This document shows, one piece after another, positions 1,600 to 10,730 of a stretch of 64,000 bases of DNA. The DNA is from Granulicella sp. dw_53. Lineage in GTDB: Bacteria; Acidobacteriota; Terriglobia; Terriglobales; Acidobacteriaceae. Within the stretch, counting starts at the first letter, position 1. Every line of letters begins with the position of its first letter. Under the pieces are notes generated by a model, which did no database searches, was not told the DNA's origin, and saw only the letters and a program-made list of their open reading frames with translations. The translations under genes were made by a program, and so were the position numbers. The stretch spans positions 467,838-531,837 of the forward strand of contig NZ_JAAVUR010000003.1 in NCBI RefSeq assembly GCF_018449545.1, written 5' to 3'.

Positions 1600-3183
1600 C
1601 TACACGGCTCCAAGCGGATGCGAGCCTTCGATCCGCAGGCCGTACGGAGCATCCGAGGGATTGGAGTTGGCAGGGAGCGAGACCTGGAGCGCGCCTGCAG
1701 ACTGCGTAAACCTTAGTTGTCTTGGCTGGGGGCCGAGCAACGTGACACGCTCGACCTTCGCTGCCGTACTGCCAAGCGACCGAATGCTCGCCTGACCGGC
1801 AGGATATTTGTAACCGAAGGCGTACAGCATGTTGTTCGCCGTGGTGAAGCGAAAGTCCGCCTCGGTCATAGGGCCAGAGGACTTGCGCTTGAGCGGCGGA
1901 CCAGGACGATCGGTCGAGCCACCCTTCCAGTCTCCCGGAGCCGCTGAAGGCACACCTGGGCCTTCCCCGGGATGCGTCCAGGGCCGACTGCCGTAGATAC
2001 CCTCACCGTTGCTCCGCAGCCAGTCGCCGACGCCGAGCAGGGCCGACTGCTGCGCCTCGGGGATGCTGCCATCGCCCATGGGAGAGATGTTGAGCAGCAG
2101 GTTGCCGCCAAGGCTGGCGAGCTCGACCAACTCGGTTACGATCGACGCCGAAGACCGGTAGGTCATGCCTTCGGTGTAGCCCCAGGTGCTGCCGAGCGAG
2201 TCGTCACACTGCCATCCACCTGAATAGATCCATTTGGGGGCGCGTTGCTGCTTCTCGAAGTCCTGTACGGAGCCGAAGAGGTATGCGATGTCCTTGGTAG
2301 CCAAAGTCACCTGCTCGCCCCACTTGGCGGCACGGTTGTAGTAGTAGGCGGCGGCGCGGAGCTTGACGTCATCGTACTCGCGGGGATTGACGCCGTTGTC
2401 GAAGTAGATCATCTGGGGCTCGTACTTATCGACGAGCTCCTGCACGCGAGCGAGCCAGTCCTCCTGGAAGGCGGCGGAGGCGTTGTGGTTGTTGAACTCT
2501 CCCTGAATCGGCGAACCATAGAAGCCTGCATACTTCGGATCGAACTCATCATTGGGCACACCTGCCGCTGGATAGGCGAAGGCGTCGTGCTCCATGCGAT
2601 GGCTGGAGAGGCCAAAGATCAGGTTCTGCTTGCGTACGGCCTTGGCGAGCTCGCCGATGAGGTCGCGTTTGGGGCCCATCTTGCCGGCGCACCAGGGGGT
2701 GAGGTCGGAGTCGTACATAGCAAAGCCGTCGTGGTGCTCGGCTACAGGAACCACGTACTTTGCGCCGGACTTCTGAAAGAGCTGGGCCCAGTCATCAGGG
2801 CGGTAGTTGGGAGTCTTGAAGAGGGGGATGAAGTCCTTGTAGCCGAACTTGTCGGGCGAACCGTAGTGCTCGGTGTGCCACTTTGAGTCGCTGGTGTACA
2901 TATGCCGCTCGTACCACTCGTTGAGCCGCGCGGGCACGGAGTAGAGTCCCCAATGGATGAAGATGCCGAACTTAGCCTGATTGAACCAGGTGGGCAGGGT
3001 GTAGTTGTCGCGGATGGACTCCCAGGTGGGCTCGAAGGGTCCGGCGGCCAGGGGCTTGGCCTTGGCGTAGGCGTCGGGAGCGCCGGCTGGGGCTCCGGTC
3101 TGGGCGAAGAGGGATGTTTTGGGGAGAAGCGACGCGGCGGCGGCGAGGGAGGACTGCGCGAGGAAGGAACGGCGAGAGGGCAT
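1600..3183 (-). CDS. Alpha-L-fucosidase, glycoside hydrolase family 29, Tat-exported
   Basis: 527 residues. The N-terminus SRRSFLAQ followed by an alanine-rich stretch is a twin-arginine signal, so the enzyme should fold in the cytoplasm and be exported. Residues ~65-410 are the GH29 TIM barrel: GIFIHWGLYS (~73), the substrate-binding pair HH at 150-151 (AEHHDGF), and YFDNG with Asp262 as the likely nucleophile. GGNLLLNISPMGDG (~355) is also typical. It hydrolyses terminal alpha-L-fucose from glycans. It stands alone, without other glycan-degrading genes, downstream of the helix-hairpin-helix gene on the same strand. Exact linkage specificity cannot be told. Confidence 0.93.
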   Translation of the reverse strand: MPSRRSFLAQSSLAAAASLLPKTSLFAQTGAPAGAPDAYAKAKPLAAGPFEPTWESIRDNYTLPTWFNQAKFGIFIHWGLYSVPARLNEWYERHMYTSDSKWHTEHYGSPDKFGYKDFIPLFKTPNYRPDDWAQLFQKSGAKYVVPVAEHHDGFAMYDSDLTPWCAGKMGPKRDLIGELAKAVRKQNLIFGLSSHRMEHDAFAYPAAGVPNDEFDPKYAGFYGSPIQGEFNNHNASAAFQEDWLARVQELVDKYEPQMIYFDNGVNPREYDDVKLRAAAYYYNRAAKWGEQVTLATKDIAYLFGSVQDFEKQQRAPKWIYSGGWQCDDSLGSTWGYTEGMTYRSSASIVTELVELASLGGNLLLNISPMGDGSIPEAQQSALLGVGDWLRSNGEGIYGSRPWTHPGEGPGVPSAAPGDWKGGSTDRPGPPLKRKSSGPMTEADFRFTTANNMLYAFGYKYPAGQASIRSLGSTAAKVERVTLLGPQPRQLRFTQSAGALQVSLPANSNPSDAPYGLRIEGSHPLGAV

Positions 3184-3256: not shown

Positions 3257-3577
3257 TTATTTTTCTTTCTTCGGTCTCGTCGCGATGATCTGGTCTTTGA
3301 TCTGTTCGTATGTACCTGCAGGGATGACGCCCCGGGAGACGAGTTGGCCCTTGTTGGCGTAGGGCCTTCCCTCGATGATGCGTTTGGCGTACTCCGCTCC
3401 CATGCTGGGGAAGGTCTGCAGCTGGTTGGCGGTGGCGGTATTGATATCGACTTTGTCGGCCACGATCTTCGCCACCGCCGGCTTGGAAGTAGAGATTCCC
3501 TGAGCACAGGAGACGACGGGAGAGGCGAGGAGAAGGAACGCCATTGCATGAAAGACGCGAGAGGGTTTTTTGAACAT
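3257..3577 (-). CDS. Secreted ComEA-like helix-hairpin-helix protein
   Basis: 106 residues: a signal peptide (AMAFLLLASPVVSCAQ), a short linker and one helix-hairpin-helix unit from ~residue 42 (VDINTATANQL, then MGAEYAKRIIEGRPY). The HhH unit matches the DNA-binding part of competence protein ComEA and related periplasmic DNA-binding proteins. The Cys at residue 24 could be a lipobox (PVVSC) but fits poorly. A GGAG about 9 nt before the ATG supports the start. It is much smaller than full ComEA and lacks the soluble ligand-binding domain. Role in DNA uptake is only inference; no other competence gene is here. Confidence 0.75.
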   Translation of the reverse strand: MFKKPSRVFHAMAFLLLASPVVSCAQGISTSKPAVAKIVADKVDINTATANQLQTFPSMGAEYAKRIIEGRPYANKGQLVSRGVIPAGTYEQIKDQIIATRPKKEK

Positions 3578-3626
3578 AGTGGCAGTCTCCGAGTAAGAAT
3601 AAACTGCCGAGCGCAGAGCGGCGAAT

Positions 3627-3655
3627 TGACAAGCGATGGCTCCCCAGCTACTTTT
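3627..3655 (+). promoter_or_regulatory. Probable promoter of the his operon
   Basis: A perfect -35 hexamer TTGACA (3627-3632) is followed after 17 bases by TACTTT (3650-3655), which matches the -10 consensus at only three positions. This placement puts transcription start at about 3661-3663, on or next to the leader-peptide ATG at 3663. Element match and spacing are seen; activity and the exact start are inferred. Confidence 0.45.
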
Positions 3656-3662
3656 AATAGGA

Positions 3663-3746
3663 ATGAGCGTCTGCCAGCACCATCACGGCCTGCACCATCA
3701 TCATGCGACGAGCGTGTTGGCGGCTGTGTCCGGTGTGGCGAAGTAA
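3663..3746 (+). CDS. hisL: Histidine operon leader peptide
   Basis: A 27-residue reading frame that starts with ATG at 3663 and stops with TAA at 3746. Residues 6-8 and 11-14 are all histidine (HHHGLHHHH), seven of nine codons (3678-3686 and 3693-3704). Such a run immediately upstream of hisI and followed by a terminator hairpin is the hallmark of his attenuation, as in the E. coli hisL peptide with seven consecutive His. The peptide itself should have no function; its translation rate senses charged tRNA-His. The nearest purine-rich stretch (AGGA) lies only one base before ATG, so either initiation is weak or the mRNA is leaderless. Confidence 0.85.
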   Translation: MSVCQHHHGLHHHHATSVLAAVSGVAK

Positions 3747-3808
3747 AGAACGCTACCTCAAGGATTCAAAAAAGGCCCGCTAACGCGCTTACCGCGAGCG
3801 GGCCTTTT
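3675..3808 (+). promoter_or_regulatory. his attenuator: alternative RNA structures
   Basis: Three mutually exclusive pairings can be drawn. (1) The early His-codon segment 3675-3686 pairs with 3714-3726 (4+3+3 bp with small internal loops). (2) The antiterminator: 3711-3723 (AGCGTGTTGGCGG) pairs with 3777-3789 (CCGCTAACGCGCT), 13 consecutive pairs, two of them G-U. (3) The terminator 3770-3781 with 3797-3808. Pairing 2 consumes most of the terminator 5' arm. A ribosome stalled at His codons would block 3675-3686 and leave 3711-3723 free, favouring read-through. Base complementarity is seen; the mechanism is inferred from the enterobacterial his model. Confidence 0.8.
3770..3808 (+). terminator. 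Intrinsic terminator of the his leader
   Basis: Perfect 12-bp stem AAAAGGCCCGCT (3770-3781) with AGCGGGCCTTTT (3797-3808) around a 15-base loop that itself can pair CGCG with CGCG. The U tract is part of the stem's 3' arm (four Ts), then GC-rich sequence follows. It lies 23 bases after the leader-peptide stop and 54 bases before hisI. Confidence 0.8.
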
Positions 3809-3862
3809 GCTGCGCGGCATACGACGAAAGCGAGCCTGAAACAGAGCGATTGGAGAAGAGAG

Positions 3863-4216
3863 ATGGACGCACCAAAGATTGATTTTGCGAAGATGGAAGG
3901 TCTGGTTCCGGGCATCGTGCAGGACGCCAAGACCGGTGAGATGCTGATGCTCGGTTTCCTCAACGAGGTCAGCTACGCCAAGACCCTGGAGACCGGGTTC
4001 GTAACCTTCTGGAGCCGCACGCGCCAGAAGCTGTGGATGAAGGGCGAGACCAGCGGCAATCGGTTGCGCGTCATCGAGGCCGCTACGGACTGCGACAACG
4101 ATGCTCTGCTGTTCAAGGTAGAGGTCGAAGGAGACGGCCTGGTCTGCCACGAGGGCACTGTAAGCTGCTTCACGAAGAGTATTGAGACCAGCAAGATCGA
4201 AATGGAGAGAGCGTAA
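3863..4216 (+). CDS. hisI: Phosphoribosyl-AMP cyclohydrolase
   Basis: 117 residues, third step of histidine synthesis: opens the adenine ring of PR-AMP. The zinc and substrate motifs are present: [28 protein letters not shown] and the paired cysteines in CHEGTVSCF. The length is that of the stand-alone enzyme; the PR-ATP pyrophosphatase half (HisE) found in fused HisIE proteins is absent. The start ATG has AGAAGAGAG just upstream. It is the first structural gene of the operon, whereas hisI or hisIE is last in E. coli. Its stop overlaps the hisG start by one base (TAATG). Confidence 0.96.
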
Positions 4217-5097
4217 TGTCGGGAACGAAGAAGTTGAAGCTGGGAATCCCCAAGGGCAGCCTGCAGGATGCCACGATTGCACTGTTCGAGCGCGCTGGAT
4301 GGCGGATCTTCGCCAATGGACGAAGCTACTTCCCCTCCATCGATGACACTGAGATCGAGTGCATGTTGGTTCGGGCACAGGAGATGGCACGCTACGTCGA
4401 GCACGGAGCGCTCGATGCCGGCCTCACCGGCAACGACTGGGTGTTGGAGAACCAGACCGACGTCGAGTACGTCACCAGCCTTACCTACAGCAAACAGAGC
4501 CGCCAGAAGGTGAAGTGGGTGCTCGCCGTTCCCGAGGACTCGCCGTTTCAAAAGCCAGAGGATCTCGCTGGAAAGATCATCGCCACCGAGCTGGTTGAGT
4601 TCACCAAGCGCTACTTCGCCGGCAAGAACATTCCCGTTACGGTGGAGTTTAGCTGGGGCGCTACCGAGGTAAAGCCGCCTACACTCGCAGATGCCATCGT
4701 CGAGGTCACGGAGACCGGCTCCTCTCTGCGCGCGAACCGTCTGCGCATCATCGAGACCTTGATGGAGAGTGAGACTCAGCTCATCGCCAACAAGACCGCC
4801 TATGCCGACGACTGGAAGCGGGAGAAGATCAACAACATCTCCCTGATGCTGAACGCCGCCATCGCAGCGCAGGGACGAGTCGGTCTGATGCTTAACGCTC
4901 GCAAGGTGGATCTCGATGCTGTGATCGGAGTTCTGCCCGCGTTGAACTCGCCGACGGTGTCGCAGCTTAGCGATACTACCTGGGTCGCGCTGAACACGAT
5001 CCTCGATGAGCGCGAGGTGCGCGAAGTTATCCCGAAGCTCAAGGCCGTCGGAGCTACGGGAATCGTCGAGTATCCCCTTAGCAAGGTTGTCCTCTAA
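4216..5097 (+). CDS. hisG: ATP phosphoribosyltransferase, long form
   Basis: 293 residues; commits ATP and PRPP to histidine synthesis. Early residues [21 protein letters not shown] and the segment [21 protein letters not shown] are typical of the catalytic domain. The C-terminal ~75 residues (from about [16 protein letters not shown]) are the histidine-binding regulatory domain, so this is the long form that does not need HisZ and is probably feedback-inhibited by histidine. Start ATG overlaps the hisI stop, which implies translational coupling. Histidine thus appears to control this pathway both at the attenuator and at this enzyme. Confidence 0.96.
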
Positions 5098-5118
5098 CAG
5101 GCCGTCTGGAGCAGATTG

Positions 5119-6387
5119 ATGAAGTTGGTGCGTACATTTGGCCGCGGGGCGAAGGCTGCAGAGGCGTTGATCACCACACTCGAGCAACGCGGCGCACTGA
5201 ACATGGGCCGGGTCGAACCGGTGGTGCGCGAGATCCTCTCCGACGTGCGTCTGCGCGGAGAGGAAGCTCTTCGCGAATACGCGGCGAAGTTCGATTCTCT
5301 TGGAGCGAACGATGCACTGCTCGTCTCCCGCGAAGAGATGAAGGCGGCGTGGGAGGCGACCTCGCCGCACCTGCAGGAGGCGATGCAGGTGGCTCAGGCC
5401 AACATACGAGCCTTCGCCGAGGCCCAGAAGCCACAGGAGTGGATGATCGCTCCGGCAGACGGTGTCGAGACGGGTCAGATCGTTCGTCCGCTGGGAAGCG
5501 TCGGATGCTATGTTCCGGGTGGACGGTATCCGCTGCCCTCCACCTTGCTGATGACGGCTACGCCGGCACAGGTGGCGGGCGTCGAGCGCATCGTCGTCTG
5601 CTCTCCCAAACCTGCTCGCGAGACCCTGGCGGCTGCGTGGCTGGCGGGGATTACGGAGTTCTACAGGGTGGGGGGAGCACAGGCGATTGCGGCTCTCGCC
5701 TATGGCACGGCTGCGATTGCACGAGTGGATAAGATCGTTGGTCCAGGCAATCTATTTGTAACTGCGGCGAAGGCATTTGTCTCTGGCGAGTGTGGGATCG
5801 ACATGCCGGCGGGTCCGACTGAGATCGGAGTGACCAGCGAGACGGGCGATCCGGCTGGAATCGCCGCGGACCTGGTGGCGCAGGCTGAGCATGATCCTGA
5901 GGCGTTGGCCGTGCTGATCACCAGCAACGCGGAGTTGGCCGAACAGGTTGAAGCGGAGGTCAAGCAGCAGGCGAAGAGTAATACCCTTGCCAAGCAGTCG
6001 CTGGCTAAGCAAGGTTGTATCTTTGTAACCAGTACCGTTACAGAGGCGCAGGAGTTGACCAACCGGCTGGCGCTGGAGCATCTTACGGTCGACTCGGCCG
6101 CAGATGTAAAGTGGGTCAAGAATGCTGGTAGTGTGTTTGTCGGCGCTTACTCGCCGCAGTCCATGGGAGACTACGTCTCCGGCCCGAACCATGTGTTACC
6201 CACCGGGCGCAATGGGCGTGTGAGAGGTGGCTTGAGCGTAATGGACTTCGTCAAGGTAATTACGGTGCAGCAGTACACAATGAAAGGTCTCAGCCAGCTT
6301 GGCCCACACGCCATCGCACTGGCCGAGGCCGAGGGCCTCGTAGGTCATGCGGAGAGCGTGCGTGTGAAGATGAGAGGACCAAAATGA
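5119..6387 (+). CDS. hisD: Histidinol dehydrogenase
   Basis: 422 residues; oxidises histidinol to histidine in two NAD-dependent steps. Seen motifs: SVGCYVPGGRYPLPST, GPGNLFVTAAKAFV, and the signature GIDMPAGPTEIGV, then GPNHVLPTGRNGRVRGGLSV, which holds zinc and substrate residues. The start is the ATG at 5119; a TTG immediately before it also fits. The 21-base gap from hisG carries CTGGAGCAGATTG, a good ribosome site. Length is normal for the family. The last bases overlap hisC (ATGA). Confidence 0.96.
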   Translation: MKLVRTFGRGAKAAEALITTLEQRGALNMGRVEPVVREILSDVRLRGEEALREYAAKFDSLGANDALLVSREEMKAAWEATSPHLQEAMQVAQANIRAFAEAQKPQEWMIAPADGVETGQIVRPLGSVGCYVPGGRYPLPSTLLMTATPAQVAGVERIVVCSPKPARETLAAAWLAGITEFYRVGGAQAIAALAYGTAAIARVDKIVGPGNLFVTAAKAFVSGECGIDMPAGPTEIGVTSETGDPAGIAADLVAQAEHDPEALAVLITSNAELAEQVEAEVKQQAKSNTLAKQSLAKQGCIFVTSTVTEAQELTNRLALEHLTVDSAADVKWVKNAGSVFVGAYSPQSMGDYVSGPNHVLPTGRNGRVRGGLSVMDFVKVITVQQYTMKGLSQLGPHAIALAEAEGLVGHAESVRVKMRGPK

Positions 6388-7484
6388 CCCTTGCTACCGA
6401 GTTGGTTACAGAACGAAAGACCGTACGGCCGCGTCAGGCGGTCCTCGACATGCCGGAGTATCACCCGCCCCTCGCCGGACGCGAGGCGCTACGGCTGGAC
6501 TTCAACGAAAACACTTTCGCCCCCAGCCCGCGCGTCATGAAGCGCCTGCAGGCGGTGACGGCAGAGCAACTGACGAAGTATCCCGAACGCCAGACGGTGG
6601 AGCGGATTGCCGCTTCGCACTTCGGTCTCGCGCCGGAGCAGGTGCTGCTTACCAACGGAGTCGACGAGGCGATCCACCTGCTGTGCGCGGCGTTTCTGGA
6701 GCCCGAGGACGAGGCGCTGATTGCAACGCCAACCTTCTTCATGTACGACGTGAGTGTTCGAATGATGACGCCACATCTGGTCAAGGTGCAGGCGGACGAG
6801 TCGCTCGAGTTTCCTTTCGAGCGCTTTATGGCCGCGATCACCGAACGCACCAAGTTGATCATGGTAGCCTCGCCAAATAATCCGACCGGCGCTGTCGTGA
6901 GCCGCGAGCATCTGCTGGCAATCGCCGCCGCTGCTCCGCAAGCTGTACTGATGGTCGACGAGGCTTACTTCCACTTCGACGGCGATACGACACTGGGCGA
7001 CATCTCCACGGTACCTAACCTGATGATCGCCCGCACCTTCTCGAAGGCGTATGGCCTCGCCAGTTTGAGGATCGGGATGCTCGCCGGAGATGCCAAGTTG
7101 TTGAACTACGTCCGCAAGGTCAGTTCGCCTTACAACGTCAACGGCATCGCGTTGGAATGCCTGCCTGCGGCACTCGCCGACGAGGCGTATCTGACTTGGT
7201 ATGTTACGCAGGTCCACGCAGGCCGTGAGCGGGTGATCGCCGGCCTGGCGGAGCTGGGTGTTCCCTTCTTCCCAAGTCATGCGAATTTTGTGCTGATGAG
7301 GATCGGTCCGAAGCACGGCGAGCTGGTGAAGGCCATGCGAGCGCGTGGTGTGCTGTTGCGCGACCGCTCCGCCGATCCGGGTTGCGACGGATTTGTTCGG
7401 ATCACCATCGGCGTTGAAGATCACGTTACCCAAGGATTAGCAGCATTGAAGGCATCTCTCGAAGAGATTGGATGGAGCAAGTAA
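6384..7484 (+). CDS. hisC: Histidinol-phosphate aminotransferase
   Basis: 366 residues, a fold-type I PLP enzyme that converts imidazole-acetol phosphate and glutamate to histidinol phosphate. The N-terminal [36 protein letters not shown] and the PLP-lysine region [16 protein letters not shown] are all present. The start codon overlaps the hisD stop (ATGA at 6384-6387). Other class I/II aminotransferases share these motifs, but position within the operon settles the role. The stop TAA overlaps the probable hisB start. Confidence 0.95.
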
Positions 7485-8086
7485 TGGCAAGCAGCAAGAT
7501 ACGAACAGGTTCAGTAAAACGCGACACTACCGAGACGCAGATTGCGTTGAAGCTGGTGATTGATGGGCAGGGCGTCTACAAGGTCTCGACGGGCATACGC
7601 TTCTTCGACCACATGCTGGAGCTCTTCACGCGGCATGGCGGCTTCGATTTGACGTTGAGCTGCAAGGGTGATCTGGACGTGGACCAGCATCATACCGTCG
7701 AGGATGTTGGCATCGCATTGGGAGAGGCCTTCAACAAGGCCTTGGGCGACAAGAAGGGCATCATGCGCGCCGGATATTTCGTGATGGCGATGGATGAGAC
7801 GCTCGCTGTAGCCGCTGTGGATCTTAGCGGACGTGTCGCCTATATCGTCGACGACAAGGTAAAGGTCCGGCTGGTCGGCGACTTCCAGAGTGAGCTTCTT
7901 GCAGACTTCTTCGATGGTTTCGCGCGTGGCGCGAAGGCGAACGTTCACGTCAAGACGATGTATGGGCGCAGCAACCACCACAAGATCGAGGCGATCTTCA
8001 AGGCCTTTGCCCGCGCGCTGCGTGGCGCCTGCAGCCGCGATGAGCGCATGCGCGAGATGTTACCCAGCACGAAAGGTCTGCTGTAA
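7484..8086 (+). CDS. hisB: Imidazoleglycerol-phosphate dehydratase
   Basis: 200 residues, the monofunctional dehydratase without the histidinol phosphatase part of enteric HisB. The two metal-binding signatures are visible: [17 protein letters not shown] with [16 protein letters not shown], and [20 protein letters not shown] chose ATG 7484 because it overlaps the hisC stop as TAATG, as hisI/hisG does, and has GGAG six bases upstream; ATG 7472, four codons earlier, is the alternative. The histidinol-phosphate phosphatase must be encoded elsewhere. Confidence 0.95.
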
Positions 8087-8110
8087 CCAGCAACAGACGA
8101 GGCGAATTGC

Positions 8111-8719
8111 ATGATTGCGGTGATCGATTATAAGGCCGGAAACCTGACCAGCGTCGTGAAGGCACTGAGGTATCTCGGGGCCGAGACCCAGGTCACGCAG
8201 GATCCTGAGATCGTACGCCAGGCTGCAAAGGTCGTACTGCCTGGCGTGGGGCACTTTCAATCCACCCAACTCCTGACCGATCTCGGCATCACGGAGGCGG
8301 TTCGCGAAGGGGTAGCGAAGGGCGTATGGTTCCTGGGCGTCTGCGTGGGGTTGCAATGGTTGTTCGAAGGCTCTACCGAGGCTCCTGGCACTGCGGGCCT
8401 TGGACACTTCGCTGGTGTATGTGAGCGGTTCCCAGCCGAATATGAGTCCGCGGAGTTAAAGTCGCCTCATGTTGGCTGGAACTCTTTGGAGCAGATTCGT
8501 TCCGACTCCAAACTGTTGCAGGGTGTAGAACCGGGCGGCTTTGTCTACTACACCCACTCCTGGCGAGCTCCTCTGGTGTCGGCAACTGCTTCGGTTACGA
8601 ATTATGGCGGTGCGTTTACGGGCGTGGTGGAACGAGAGAACGTGATGGGTGTCCAGTTCCATCCCGAAAAATCGAGCGCTGTTGGACTGCGTGTCTTAAA
8701 GAACTTTGTGGAGCTGTAA
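8111..8719 (+). CDS. hisH: Imidazole glycerol phosphate synthase, glutaminase subunit
   Basis: 202 residues; releases ammonia from glutamine and passes it to HisF. The class I amidotransferase triad is visible: Cys in [12 protein letters not shown] (~residue 78) and His/Glu in [10 protein letters not shown] (~residue 182). The oxyanion-strand motif GVGHF is also present. The nucleophile region reads GVCVGLQ instead of the more common GICLGMQ, a conservative change. GACGAGGCG upstream of ATG 8111 is the ribosome site. The gene ends one base before the hisF start. Confidence 0.95.
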
Positions 8720-8720
8720 C

Positions 8721-9500
8721 GTGCTGACGAAGAGAATTATCGCGTGTCTGGATGTGCGGGACGGCCGTGTTGTGAAGGGTATCCAGTTTGTGGACATCAT
8801 CGACGCCGGCGATCCGGCTGAACTCGCTCATCGCCACGCTGCGGCGGGCGCGGACGAGATCGTCCTGCTTGACATCACCGCCACTCACGAAGGCCGTGGA
8901 ACTCTGATCGACACGGTGAAACGCACGGCCTCCGAGCTGTTTGTGCCCTTTACGGTCGGGGGGGGAATTCGTTCCGCTAAGGATGCGGCGCTGGTCTTCG
9001 ACGCCGGAGCGGATAAAGTCAGCATCAACTCCAGTGCCATTGCACGGCCTGAGCTGATTGGCGAGATCGGCGGCAGCTTTGGAGCCCAGGCCGTCATAGT
9101 CGCCATCGATGCCCGTCGCGCGGCAGGCGCAGCCGATCCTGTCGGCGAGGCTGAGGTCTTCGTCAGCGGAGGCCGCAAAGCCACCGGTCTGCGCGTCATA
9201 GAGTGGGCTCGTGAGGCTGAGCAGCGCGGCGCCGGTGAGATTCTGCTGACCAGCATGGATACGGATGGGATGCGCAACGGCTTCGACTGTGAACTCACCG
9301 CCCGAGTCAGCGCCGCGGTGCAGATTCCCGTCATCGCCTCCGGTGGAGCGGGAAGCGCAGCGCACTTTGCCGAGGTCTTCGGACGAGGCCGAGCCGATGC
9401 AGCTCTCGCGGCCAGCATCTTCCACTTTGGAGTGACGGACTCGCGCGAGCTTAAGGCGGAGCTTCAACGGGCAGGCATTCCGGTGCGCCTGCCCTGTTAG
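8721..9500 (+). CDS. hisF: Imidazole glycerol phosphate synthase, cyclase subunit
   Basis: 259 residues, a TIM barrel that joins ammonia with PRFAR to make imidazole glycerol phosphate and AICAR. The start is GTG 8721: it gives [19 protein letters not shown], the normal HisF N-terminus, and TGGAG lies seven bases upstream. Catalytic aspartates sit in CLDV and AIDARR; VGGGIRS and ASGGAGS are the phosphate-binding loops. It is the last gene of the operon. The closely related isomerase gene hisA, usually found between hisH and hisF, is missing here. Confidence 0.96.
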
Positions 9501-9512
9501 GAAGCGATTTTT

Positions 9513-10730
9513 CTAGGTCAGTTGGCCGGGTGTCTGCTGGTCCTTCGCGTCGCCCAGTTTTACCTTGAAGTCCATCTTTTTGCGGCCACGGAATACCGTC
9601 ACTGTCACCTCATCACCAGCGCGATGCGAGTTCATCGCCGCCGAGAGATCTTGTGGACTCCCAACTTCCTGACCATCCATCGCGATGATCAGGTCGCCGC
9701 CCAGCATCACAGGTGTATTTCCCTGGTACGCCCGCTGCGTGCCGCCCTTTAGCCCAGCCTTCTCGGCAGCGCCACCTGGCAACACACGCTCGATCAGGAT
9801 GCCGTAGTCCGCTGGCAGGCCGATCTGCTCCGCGATATCCGGTCCGATCGGCAGCGTCACGATATCCAGCGTCGGCCTCCGCACACGGCCGTATTTGGCA
9901 AAGTCGTCCAACACGGCCTTCGCCGTATTCACAGGGATTGCAAAGCCGATACCGGAGCTCTGATCTGCGCCGTTGTTGGCGATCAAGGTGGTAATCCCAA
10001 TGACCTCGCCCTTTGAGTTGAGCAGCGGACCGCCCGAGTTGCCGGGGTTTACTGCCGCATCGGTCTGGATGGCGTCCTCGATCGGATTGCCCTGTGGGCC
10101 GCGAATCGAGCGTATCGCAGAGATGATTCCGCGCGTCATCGTTCCTTGCAGGCCGAAGGGATTTCCGATCGCGTAGACACGCTGTCCTACCACCAGCCCT
10201 TGCGACTCAGCCAATGTTGCCGGAATCAGATTCGGGGCGCTGATCTTCAGCAGAGCGAGGTCATGATTCGGATCCACACCTATAACCTGCGCCTTATAGG
10301 TGTGCTTATCGGATAGCTTCACCTCGATCTTCTGGCCGTCGCTGATTACGTGGTTATTCGTCAGGATGAGCCCATCCTTATCCAGGATGAAGCCTGAGCC
10401 CTGTCCCTGCTGGGGCACTGGACCGTAGAAGAAGTCGAACCGCACCTGCGTCGAGGTGATGTTGACCACGCTCGGCAGAGCTTTCTTGTACACCGCTATG
10501 TTCTGTAGCTCCTCGTTGTCGTACGCCGGAGCCGCCGCGGCTTCGGTGAGGTCGAAGCTGCCTAACGCACCCCCACCCTTCTTTACGTGGGCGGCGGGCT
10601 CAGTGGCTGGAACCAGTGCGCGATGTAGCCAGGGAGCGAGCGCTCCCGTTGACGCCACATGCGTCGTTACATAATAAAAACCCGAAAGCAAAAGAATGAC
10701 CAGCAGAACAGGACGCAGCTTCATCTTCAT
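9513..10730 (-). CDS. HtrA/DegP-type serine protease with one PDZ domain
   Basis: 405 residues: an N-terminal membrane anchor or signal (residues 6-22), a trypsin-like domain (~75-285) with His127 (TNNHVI), Asp157 (NHDLAL) and Ser232 (NPGNSGGPL), and one C-terminal PDZ domain (~300-395, VLPGGAAEKAGL). This is the DegS/HhoB plan of a single-PDZ envelope protease, used in protein quality control or stress signalling. AAGG seven bases before ATG supports the start. It converges with hisF with only 12 bases between stop codons. It could be served by a promoter in the 102-base gap after coaE, where TACAAT is seen on the minus strand. Confidence 0.94.
   Translation of the reverse strand: MKMKLRPVLLVILLLSGFYYVTTHVASTGALAPWLHRALVPATEPAAHVKKGGGALGSFDLTEAAAAPAYDNEELQNIAVYKKALPSVVNITSTQVRFDFFYGPVPQQGQGSGFILDKDGLILTNNHVISDGQKIEVKLSDKHTYKAQVIGVDPNHDLALLKISAPNLIPATLAESQGLVVGQRVYAIGNPFGLQGTMTRGIISAIRSIRGPQGNPIEDAIQTDAAVNPGNSGGPLLNSKGEVIGITTLIANNGADQSSGIGFAIPVNTAKAVLDDFAKYGRVRRPTLDIVTLPIGPDIAEQIGLPADYGILIERVLPGGAAEKAGLKGGTQRAYQGNTPVMLGGDLIIAMDGQEVGSPQDLSAAMNSHRAGDEVTVTVFRGRKKMDFKVKLGDAKDQQTPGQLT

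Follow-up and report, generated by a model that had tools for sequence, protein, structure and literature searches.

The window, i.e. the whole stretch of 64,000 nucleotides analysed here, carries on its plus strand a his operon which starts with hisI (3863-4216; Pfam PF01502, 8.1e-30) and continues, according to Pfam matches, with hisG, hisD, a hisC-like aminotransferase gene, hisB, a hisH-like amidotransferase gene and hisA (4216-9500). The neighbours of the operon are both encoded on the minus strand, namely an alpha-L-fucosidase (1600-3183) and a trypsin/PDZ protease (9513-10730), and a helix-hairpin-helix gene, likewise recognised by Pfam, is transcribed divergently (3257-3577, minus strand) upstream of the leader region preceding hisI. 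This region contains a short ORF, MSVCQHHHGLHHHHATSVLAAVSGVAK, of 27 codons, seven of them coding for histidine (3663-3746, plus strand; ATG at 3663-3665, stop codon TAA at 3744-3746). The His codons occur in runs of three and four (3678-3686 and 3693-3704, respectively), which together make up the putative sensor (3678-3704, plus strand) and the end of which is also strand 1 of the pairings described below. Among the 98,866 stop-free stretches of 11 codons on both strands of the window, five contain at least six His codons, and all of them lie inside the leader ORF. The reading frame of hisI is itself open far upstream, across both the leader and the terminator (3344-4216), so that gene prediction might place the start of hisI too far upstream (290 aa) and thereby hide the leader.

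Strand 2 (3711-3723, plus strand like all elements that follow) lies inside the leader ORF and constitutes the 5' half of an antiterminator, the 3' half of which is strand 3 (3777-3789); both were assigned by a check of the bases and by covariation, and strand 2 in addition by its few synonymous changes. Strand 3 overlaps the 5' arm of a Rho-independent terminator hairpin (pairing 3:4; 3770-3808, stem 3770-3781/3797-3808), for which base check, fold and covariation agree. Folds and covariation further place strand 2 in a 1:2 hairpin (3695-3723), in which 3702-3706 pair with 3712-3716, extended by 3698-3700/3718-3720 and 3695-3696/3722-3723, and the fold predicts an inner helix of the antiterminator (3728-3765; 3728-3731/3762-3765, 3732-3733/3757-3758 and 3735-3740/3751-3756) with the stop codon in its loop. 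An earlier note on this DNA had described a 27-codon frame with seven His codons before hisI, a 13-bp antiterminator and a 12-bp terminator stem; the frame was reproduced base for base, as were the 13 antiterminator pairs, two of them G-U, and the 12 Watson-Crick pairs of the terminator stem. A GGAU(U/C) motif following the stop codon (3762-3765 in the window) recurs in the clade of relatives with SVLAAVSG tails, and could, judging from the fold, pair with GUCC in the tail (3728-3731) to give the inner helix around the stop codon.

When compared to 200 dinucleotide shuffles per segment, the antiterminator segment (-35.8 kcal/mol, z -3.8) and the terminator segment (-26.5 kcal/mol, z -6.0) were both more stable than any shuffle. 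In a separate comparison of the whole leader with shuffles (z -2.8), two shuffles were as good. The 1:2 hairpin alone is unremarkable by this measure (-11.6 kcal/mol, z -1.6, 15 of 200 shuffles as good), and so is its long form (-32.7 kcal/mol, z -1.7, 14 of 200). The ORF, the antiterminator and the terminator stem are not the product of chance. The U-run of the window's terminator is short, consisting of four U that are paired into the stem and are followed by GCUGCG, and neither this terminator nor the promoter described below scored at the thresholds of a simple scan tool applied to the window.

With respect to related bacteria, hisI could be matched in 57 of 61 genomes, and the best 80 of 563 loci from the hisI search were kept (Acidobacteriaceae, Edaphobacter, Granulicella, Terriglobus and Acidobacteria(ota) bacterium). 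In all of these best 80 of the 563 loci a short ORF with at least four His in 12 residues precedes hisI, in one case (L073) as the second-listed ORF. Together with 31 more loci they form a near set of 111, two of which are the window itself, with 96 distinct leaders (alignment A1). A His-rich frame and covariation in relatives had been set beforehand as the check on which the reading of the earlier note could fail, and both were found. A best stem of at least eight pairs lies 19-43 nt past the stop codon in all 111 loci, and a T-run of at least five is present at the terminator in 74 of the 96 near leaders and in 47 of the 60 distant leaders introduced below.

In the antiterminator, 1002 of 1160 cells (86.4%) are paired over the 96 leaders, compared to 32-42% in slid controls, and seven pairs have changed on both sides, a number reached by one of 500 shuffles, although such shuffle counts, here and below, do not amount to probabilities because the 96 rows are related. 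Among these double changes, U-A has become C-G in 33 sequences and C-G has become U-A in 20, and the outer four pairs are weaker, with 78, 11, 3 and 35 sequences unpaired and 40 gapped in the second and third. The terminator has 87.3% of 1136 cells paired (slid controls 33-63%) and 78 double-changed cells versus 30 in shuffles; its four double-changed pairs are unexceptional, being matched by 160 of 500 shuffles, and the same is true for further pair types in the antiterminator, the terminator and the 1:2 hairpin (85, 169 and 191 of 500 shuffles, respectively). For the seven pairs of the 1:2 hairpin, 90.7% of 666 cells are paired (slid controls 18-46%), with changes on both sides at two pairs, in 33 sequences (32 of them C-G to G-C) and in 28 (U-A to C-G), and with one of the seven pairs unpaired in 50 sequences. 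As four of the six helices of the longer 1:2 pairing seen in the window have only 50-68% of their cells paired, this longer form is not generally kept, and only the 1:2 core is claimed here. RNAalifold, run without a given structure, returned eight of the 2:3 pairs and three of the 1:2 pairs. The leaders thus display what is expected of an attenuator, namely an antiterminator which excludes the terminator and is conserved by covariation, and a 1:2 hairpin which overlaps the sensor codons.

A covariance model (R1) built from alignment A1 matched 214 of 299 class-level genomes at E 0.01, these E-values being rough. From the matches listed, 60 distant loci belonging to families other than that of the window were picked for distance and not at random; by tblastn, 59 of them precede hisI, while the remaining one (L181) is cut short by the end of its contig. 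A leader ORF is present in every one of the 60, with at least four His in 11 codons in 59 and with three His in L189, which was read by hand, and all 60 have a best stem of at least seven pairs past the stop codon. The tails of the leader peptides differ by family (PCPRRCG, PRPLRCA, CQWANA, GGRSLF), and with the 3' arm left out strand 2 pairs with strand 3 in four groups of 19, 4, 4 and 14 sequences, i.e. in 41 of the 60; one of three folds for group f6b, computed with the His codons masked, lacks the 2:3 pairing because the mask ran past strand 2. Family f5 has as strand 1 the sequence CUGACA just before the His codons, which is a copy of part of strand 3. A global alignment of all families (A2) showed no shared structure beyond the terminator and folded to nothing when shortened, and was replaced by separate alignments of the four groups; this result counts against a single common antiterminator sequence.

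At the level of the phylum, R1 matched 70 of 297 genomes at E 0.001, of which 39 are outside the class. Out of 20 of these 39 that were examined, there are ten in which a His-rich ORF, with 4-7 His in 10 residues, precedes his genes, namely hisI-hisG except in L203 (hisG- and hisC-like), their hairpins being judged by eye. No his gene was found behind the other ten, two of which (L215 and L216) hold a His-rich stretch, and R1 matches near 1e-3 to 1e-6 are therefore not to be trusted alone. Two loci of one out-of-class genus (L212 and L213) share, near position 1501, the small reading frame VSRERCLLTALHRME and, after it, a hairpin resembling a terminator; as no his gene follows in either, this is perhaps another small element.

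In addition, 14 hisI loci were taken by gene. All ten with hisI-hisG first have a His-rich ORF (weakly so in L233, with three His); L228 has hisI-hisG preceded by an open frame which runs up to hisI, and no leader, and in L229-L231 hisI is found late in the operon. For two of these last loci, which represent two lineages of the same class, the operon of the order hisG-D-C-B-H-A-F-I was examined as well (L250 and L251, families f4 and f10), and in neither stretch does any ORF of 45 codons or fewer contain four His in 10. From the loci picked by gene and these two cases it appears that the leader goes with the hisI-hisG type of operon and is absent from the two other-type cases examined, so that leader and operon type may go together.

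A search for other leaders covered three stretches of the source genome. By eye, no Trp leader stands in front of trpE (L245, 2480-2700), and an 18-kb stretch with leuA/ilvB-type matches (L244) yielded no leader candidate at the thresholds of a script, the terminator rule of which recovers the window's own hairpin but only 76 of the 96 near leaders, and 58 of the 60 distant ones. In this genome, control by leader peptides may thus be uncommon for operons other than his. The third stretch contains a hisF-type match on another contig, away from the his operon (L247), with no His leader seen by eye in the approximately 250 nt before it.

The codon usage of the leaders was analysed for 39 and 33 members of two large clades, the other 24 of the 96 being excluded. 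In the relatives His is kept, with CAT and CAC alternating at most of the positions: in the first clade it is kept in 32-39 of 39 leaders at six positions and in 18 and 23 of 39 at two more, both codons being used at each of these positions, and in the second clade some His positions are nearly of one codon (CAT in 29 of 29 and 31 of 32). Where the residue is kept, the strand-2 codons AGC, GTG, TTG and GCG of the first clade are the single codon used in 36/36, 38/38, 36/37 and 39/39 leaders, respectively, and the second clade has CCG in 25/25 and GCG in 33/33. On the whole, this codon signature suggests that selection acts on the amino acid in the sensor and on the nucleotides in strand 2, as an attenuator would need.

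The tails SVLAAVSG and MPADCHG are each conserved in their own clade, and a few codons of the tail that lie outside strand 2 vary synonymously (Ala21, Gly24 and Val25 of the window peptide), which might be expected if the His-rich peptide were itself the product, e.g. one that binds metal or acts in trans, with the hairpin serving as the terminator of its own small gene; a trans-acting leader peptide is indeed known from Sinorhizobium (excerpts of PMC7298713). However, there is hardly any synonymous change in the tail codons belonging to strand 2, the tail differs between families and yet strand 2 still pairs with strand 3 in each of the four groups that were folded, and the verified loci stand before his genes. 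Since constant strand-2 codons and a pairing kept across differing tails imply that most of the conservation is explained by RNA pairing, a conserved peptide as its cause is in the main rejected by codon usage, and we consider an independent peptide gene very improbable.

Upstream of the leader ORF, a -35 element TTGACA (3626-3631, plus strand) is followed after a 17-nt spacer by the -10-like sequence TACTTT (3649-3654, plus strand), 8 nt before the ATG, which was missed by the scan because it has only three of the six consensus bases. The spacing of this -10 predicts a transcription start at 3661, plus or minus 2 nt, on the plus strand, i.e. 0-3 nt before the ATG. Near leaders have an exact TTGACA in 77 of 96 cases and one with a single mismatch in the other 19, at a distance of 37-39 nt from the ATG in 79 of 96, and among the distant leaders 41 of 59 have a -35 with at most one mismatch, the other 18 all being members of family f6 (two to three mismatches), in which a TATACT-like -10 can be seen by eye at a distance of about 8-9 nt from the ATG. 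In 91 of 156 leaders, compared to 71 of 467 control sites, the end of the best -10-like hexamer falls 8-10 nt upstream of the start, and Shine-Dalgarno (SD)-like 4-mers at proper spacing are found at 5 of 156 leader starts, in contrast to 44 of 467 other upstream sites and to 121 of 155 hisI starts, the latter count being an upper value as several candidate starts were allowed. Because the promoter in most cases directly adjoins the ATG and leader starts rarely have SD-like motifs, the leader is predicted to be leaderless: it lacks a usable SD sequence, and its ATG most likely stands at the very 5' end of the mRNA, a point not made in the earlier note. Leaderless genes have been predicted at 13.3% on average in three Acidobacteria genomes (PMC3160421, from the part of this source at hand).

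Alternatively, the same attenuator might have an ordinary 5' UTR transcribed from a more distant promoter, its initiation then not being leaderless. The AGGA right before the ATG, the poor -10 of the window and the weak -35 match of family f6 would fit this possibility. The AGGA, however, touches the ATG and is thus too close for SD pairing, an in-frame upstream ATG (3636) falls between the -35 and the -10, and both the largely constant distance from TTGACA to the ATG and the rarity of SD-like motifs at leader starts relative to other upstream sites argue against it, so that we regard a longer 5' UTR as unlikely and the leaderless start as the preferred reading.

In Rfam, the enteric his leader family (hisL, RF00514) gave no hit at its gathering score, neither in the window nor among 20 relatives, and assignment to the enteric his model by homology was rejected as RF00514 did not match the segment 3560-3900 even at E 10. 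A weak match to Trp_leader (18.3 bits versus a gathering score of 41) was best supported over the terminator. T-boxes control his operons in some Firmicutes, and one has been proposed in C. glutamicum (PMC3896937 and PMC9413887, as far as excerpts of both tell), but neither the T-box nor any other Rfam family scored at gathering level in the window or the same 20 relatives, and the run of His codons stands in an open frame conserved at the amino-acid level. A T-box or other riboswitch in place of ribosome-mediated attenuation is therefore hardly credible.

We are confident that the segment 3626-3808 is a histidine leader-peptide attenuator, which likely controls transcription of hisI-G-D-C-B-H-A. 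In the mechanism proposed, transcription would start 0-3 nt before the ATG and ribosomes would load on the leaderless message. When charged His-tRNA is scarce, a ribosome would stall on the His codons and cover strand 1, so that strand 2 would be available for pairing with the emerging strand 3; with 2:3 in place the terminator would come too late, and RNA polymerase would read on. When His-tRNA is plentiful, the ribosome would translate through strand 2 and be released at the stop codon, and the 1:2 hairpin would fold again in its wake; strand 3 would then be left to pair with strand 4, ending transcription ahead of hisI.

Parts of this scheme were modelled by folding the RNA cut before the 3' arm of the terminator with 30 nt blocked by the ribosome. 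In the 96 near leaders, the modelled probability of 2:3 had a median of 0.89 when the A site was occupied by a His codon, and the lowest value reached past the His run had a median of 0.04; 81 leaders passed both thresholds (above 0.5 when stalled, below 0.3 past the run) and 15 missed them. Among the distant leaders, 58 of 60 exceeded 0.5 when stalled, 34 of 60 passed both thresholds and 26 missed. In the distant set the real strand 2 outperformed the average of its shuffled versions in 48 of 51 leaders tested, and with strand 2 shuffled strand 3 still paired upstream, with a stalled median of 0.62 versus 0.87. The model thus supports the idea that strand 2 would be freed by stalling. Once the ribosome is placed on the stop codon, 2:3 becomes possible again in the fold, at a median of 0.88 in the near and 0.51 in the distant leaders, and in ribosome-free RNA it is the dominant pairing as long as the 3' arm is missing (0.86 and 0.71, respectively). 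Termination under plenty would thus need quick release of the ribosome and formation of 1:2 first. In these models folding alone does not explain termination, as an equilibrium calculation cannot show 1:2 forming first.

Folding of the full-length RNA at equilibrium was rejected as a test of the switch, since it favoured the terminator in 96 of 96 leaders at every summarised ribosome position, namely by 10.8 kcal/mol at the His stall (median of means) and by 17.9, 14.1 and 15.8 kcal/mol past the run, at the stop codon and with no ribosome, respectively. The direction of these differences fits the scheme and the sign is unchanged; the terminator being more stable in every state, the choice between the hairpins would have to be kinetic.

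The enteric his attenuation model serves as the comparison here, and the enteric his operon has a different gene order and a leader start led by an SD sequence. Unlike in enteric hisL, strand 2 of the Granulicella leader lies inside the ORF, the start is predicted to be leaderless, and the operon begins with hisI-hisG. What both have in common is the short ORF with His codons, alternative hairpins and a terminator before the first his gene (enteric leader according to excerpts of PMC3896937 and PMC9413887). The earlier note had held that the competing pairings overlap exactly as in the enteric his model; the overlap stands, but since the layout is a switch of three hairpins (1:2, 2:3 and 3:4) with an antiterminator strand inside the ORF, an exact match to that model is too strong a claim.

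Leaderless leader peptides reportedly include the mycobacterial poly-Cys ORFs (Canestrari 2020) and that of C. glutamicum ilvB (Morbach 2000). Similarly, the trpL RNA of Sinorhizobium starts with ATG and has no SD site (PMC7298713, in the part available). These Sinorhizobium, mycobacterial and C. glutamicum leaders differ in that they concern other amino acids and phyla, and the start proposed here derives from sequence comparison only. His attenuators of Firmicutes (Bacillus cereus group, Peptostreptococcaceae and Erysipelotrichales), found by comparison as well, similarly combine a His leader peptide with a terminator and an antiterminator (available text of PMC9413887), and leaders of the hisS type in Firmicutes were added to those known in Proteobacteria and Actinobacteria by a source which also states, in the portion at hand, that almost none of the predicted attenuators of Acidobacteria had a function (PMC2965389). 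Leader genes in general are treated in PMC4833913 which, in the part available, cites a 2010 multi-phylum attenuation survey (doi 10.1134/S0026893310010164). With this survey set aside, no description of a his attenuator in Acidobacteriota or Terriglobia was found in Rfam or in the open-access literature as far as its accessible parts go, in keeping with the earlier statement that none was known from this phylum. Regulators of this kind are classical; the novelty lies in the phylum, in the predicted leaderless start and in the architecture.

Taken at its broadest, the reading that we favour by a modest degree is that a leaderless His attenuator was the ancestral control of the hisI-hisG operon throughout the phylum, so that the his operon would read both the charging of His-tRNA and the capacity for leaderless initiation, with strand 2 being rewritten in each family and strand 3 following. 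The leaders described here extend amino-acid attenuation by a leader peptide to a large and little-studied soil phylum, in which well over 100 natural variants are available for comparing sensor codons, strand 2 and strand 3, and they supply an alignment of a regulator so far unrecognised by Rfam. As attenuation requires that initiation on the leader keeps pace with RNA polymerase, these leaders would, if the leaderless start is true, also provide a natural test of whether loading at a 5' AUG is fast enough to do so.
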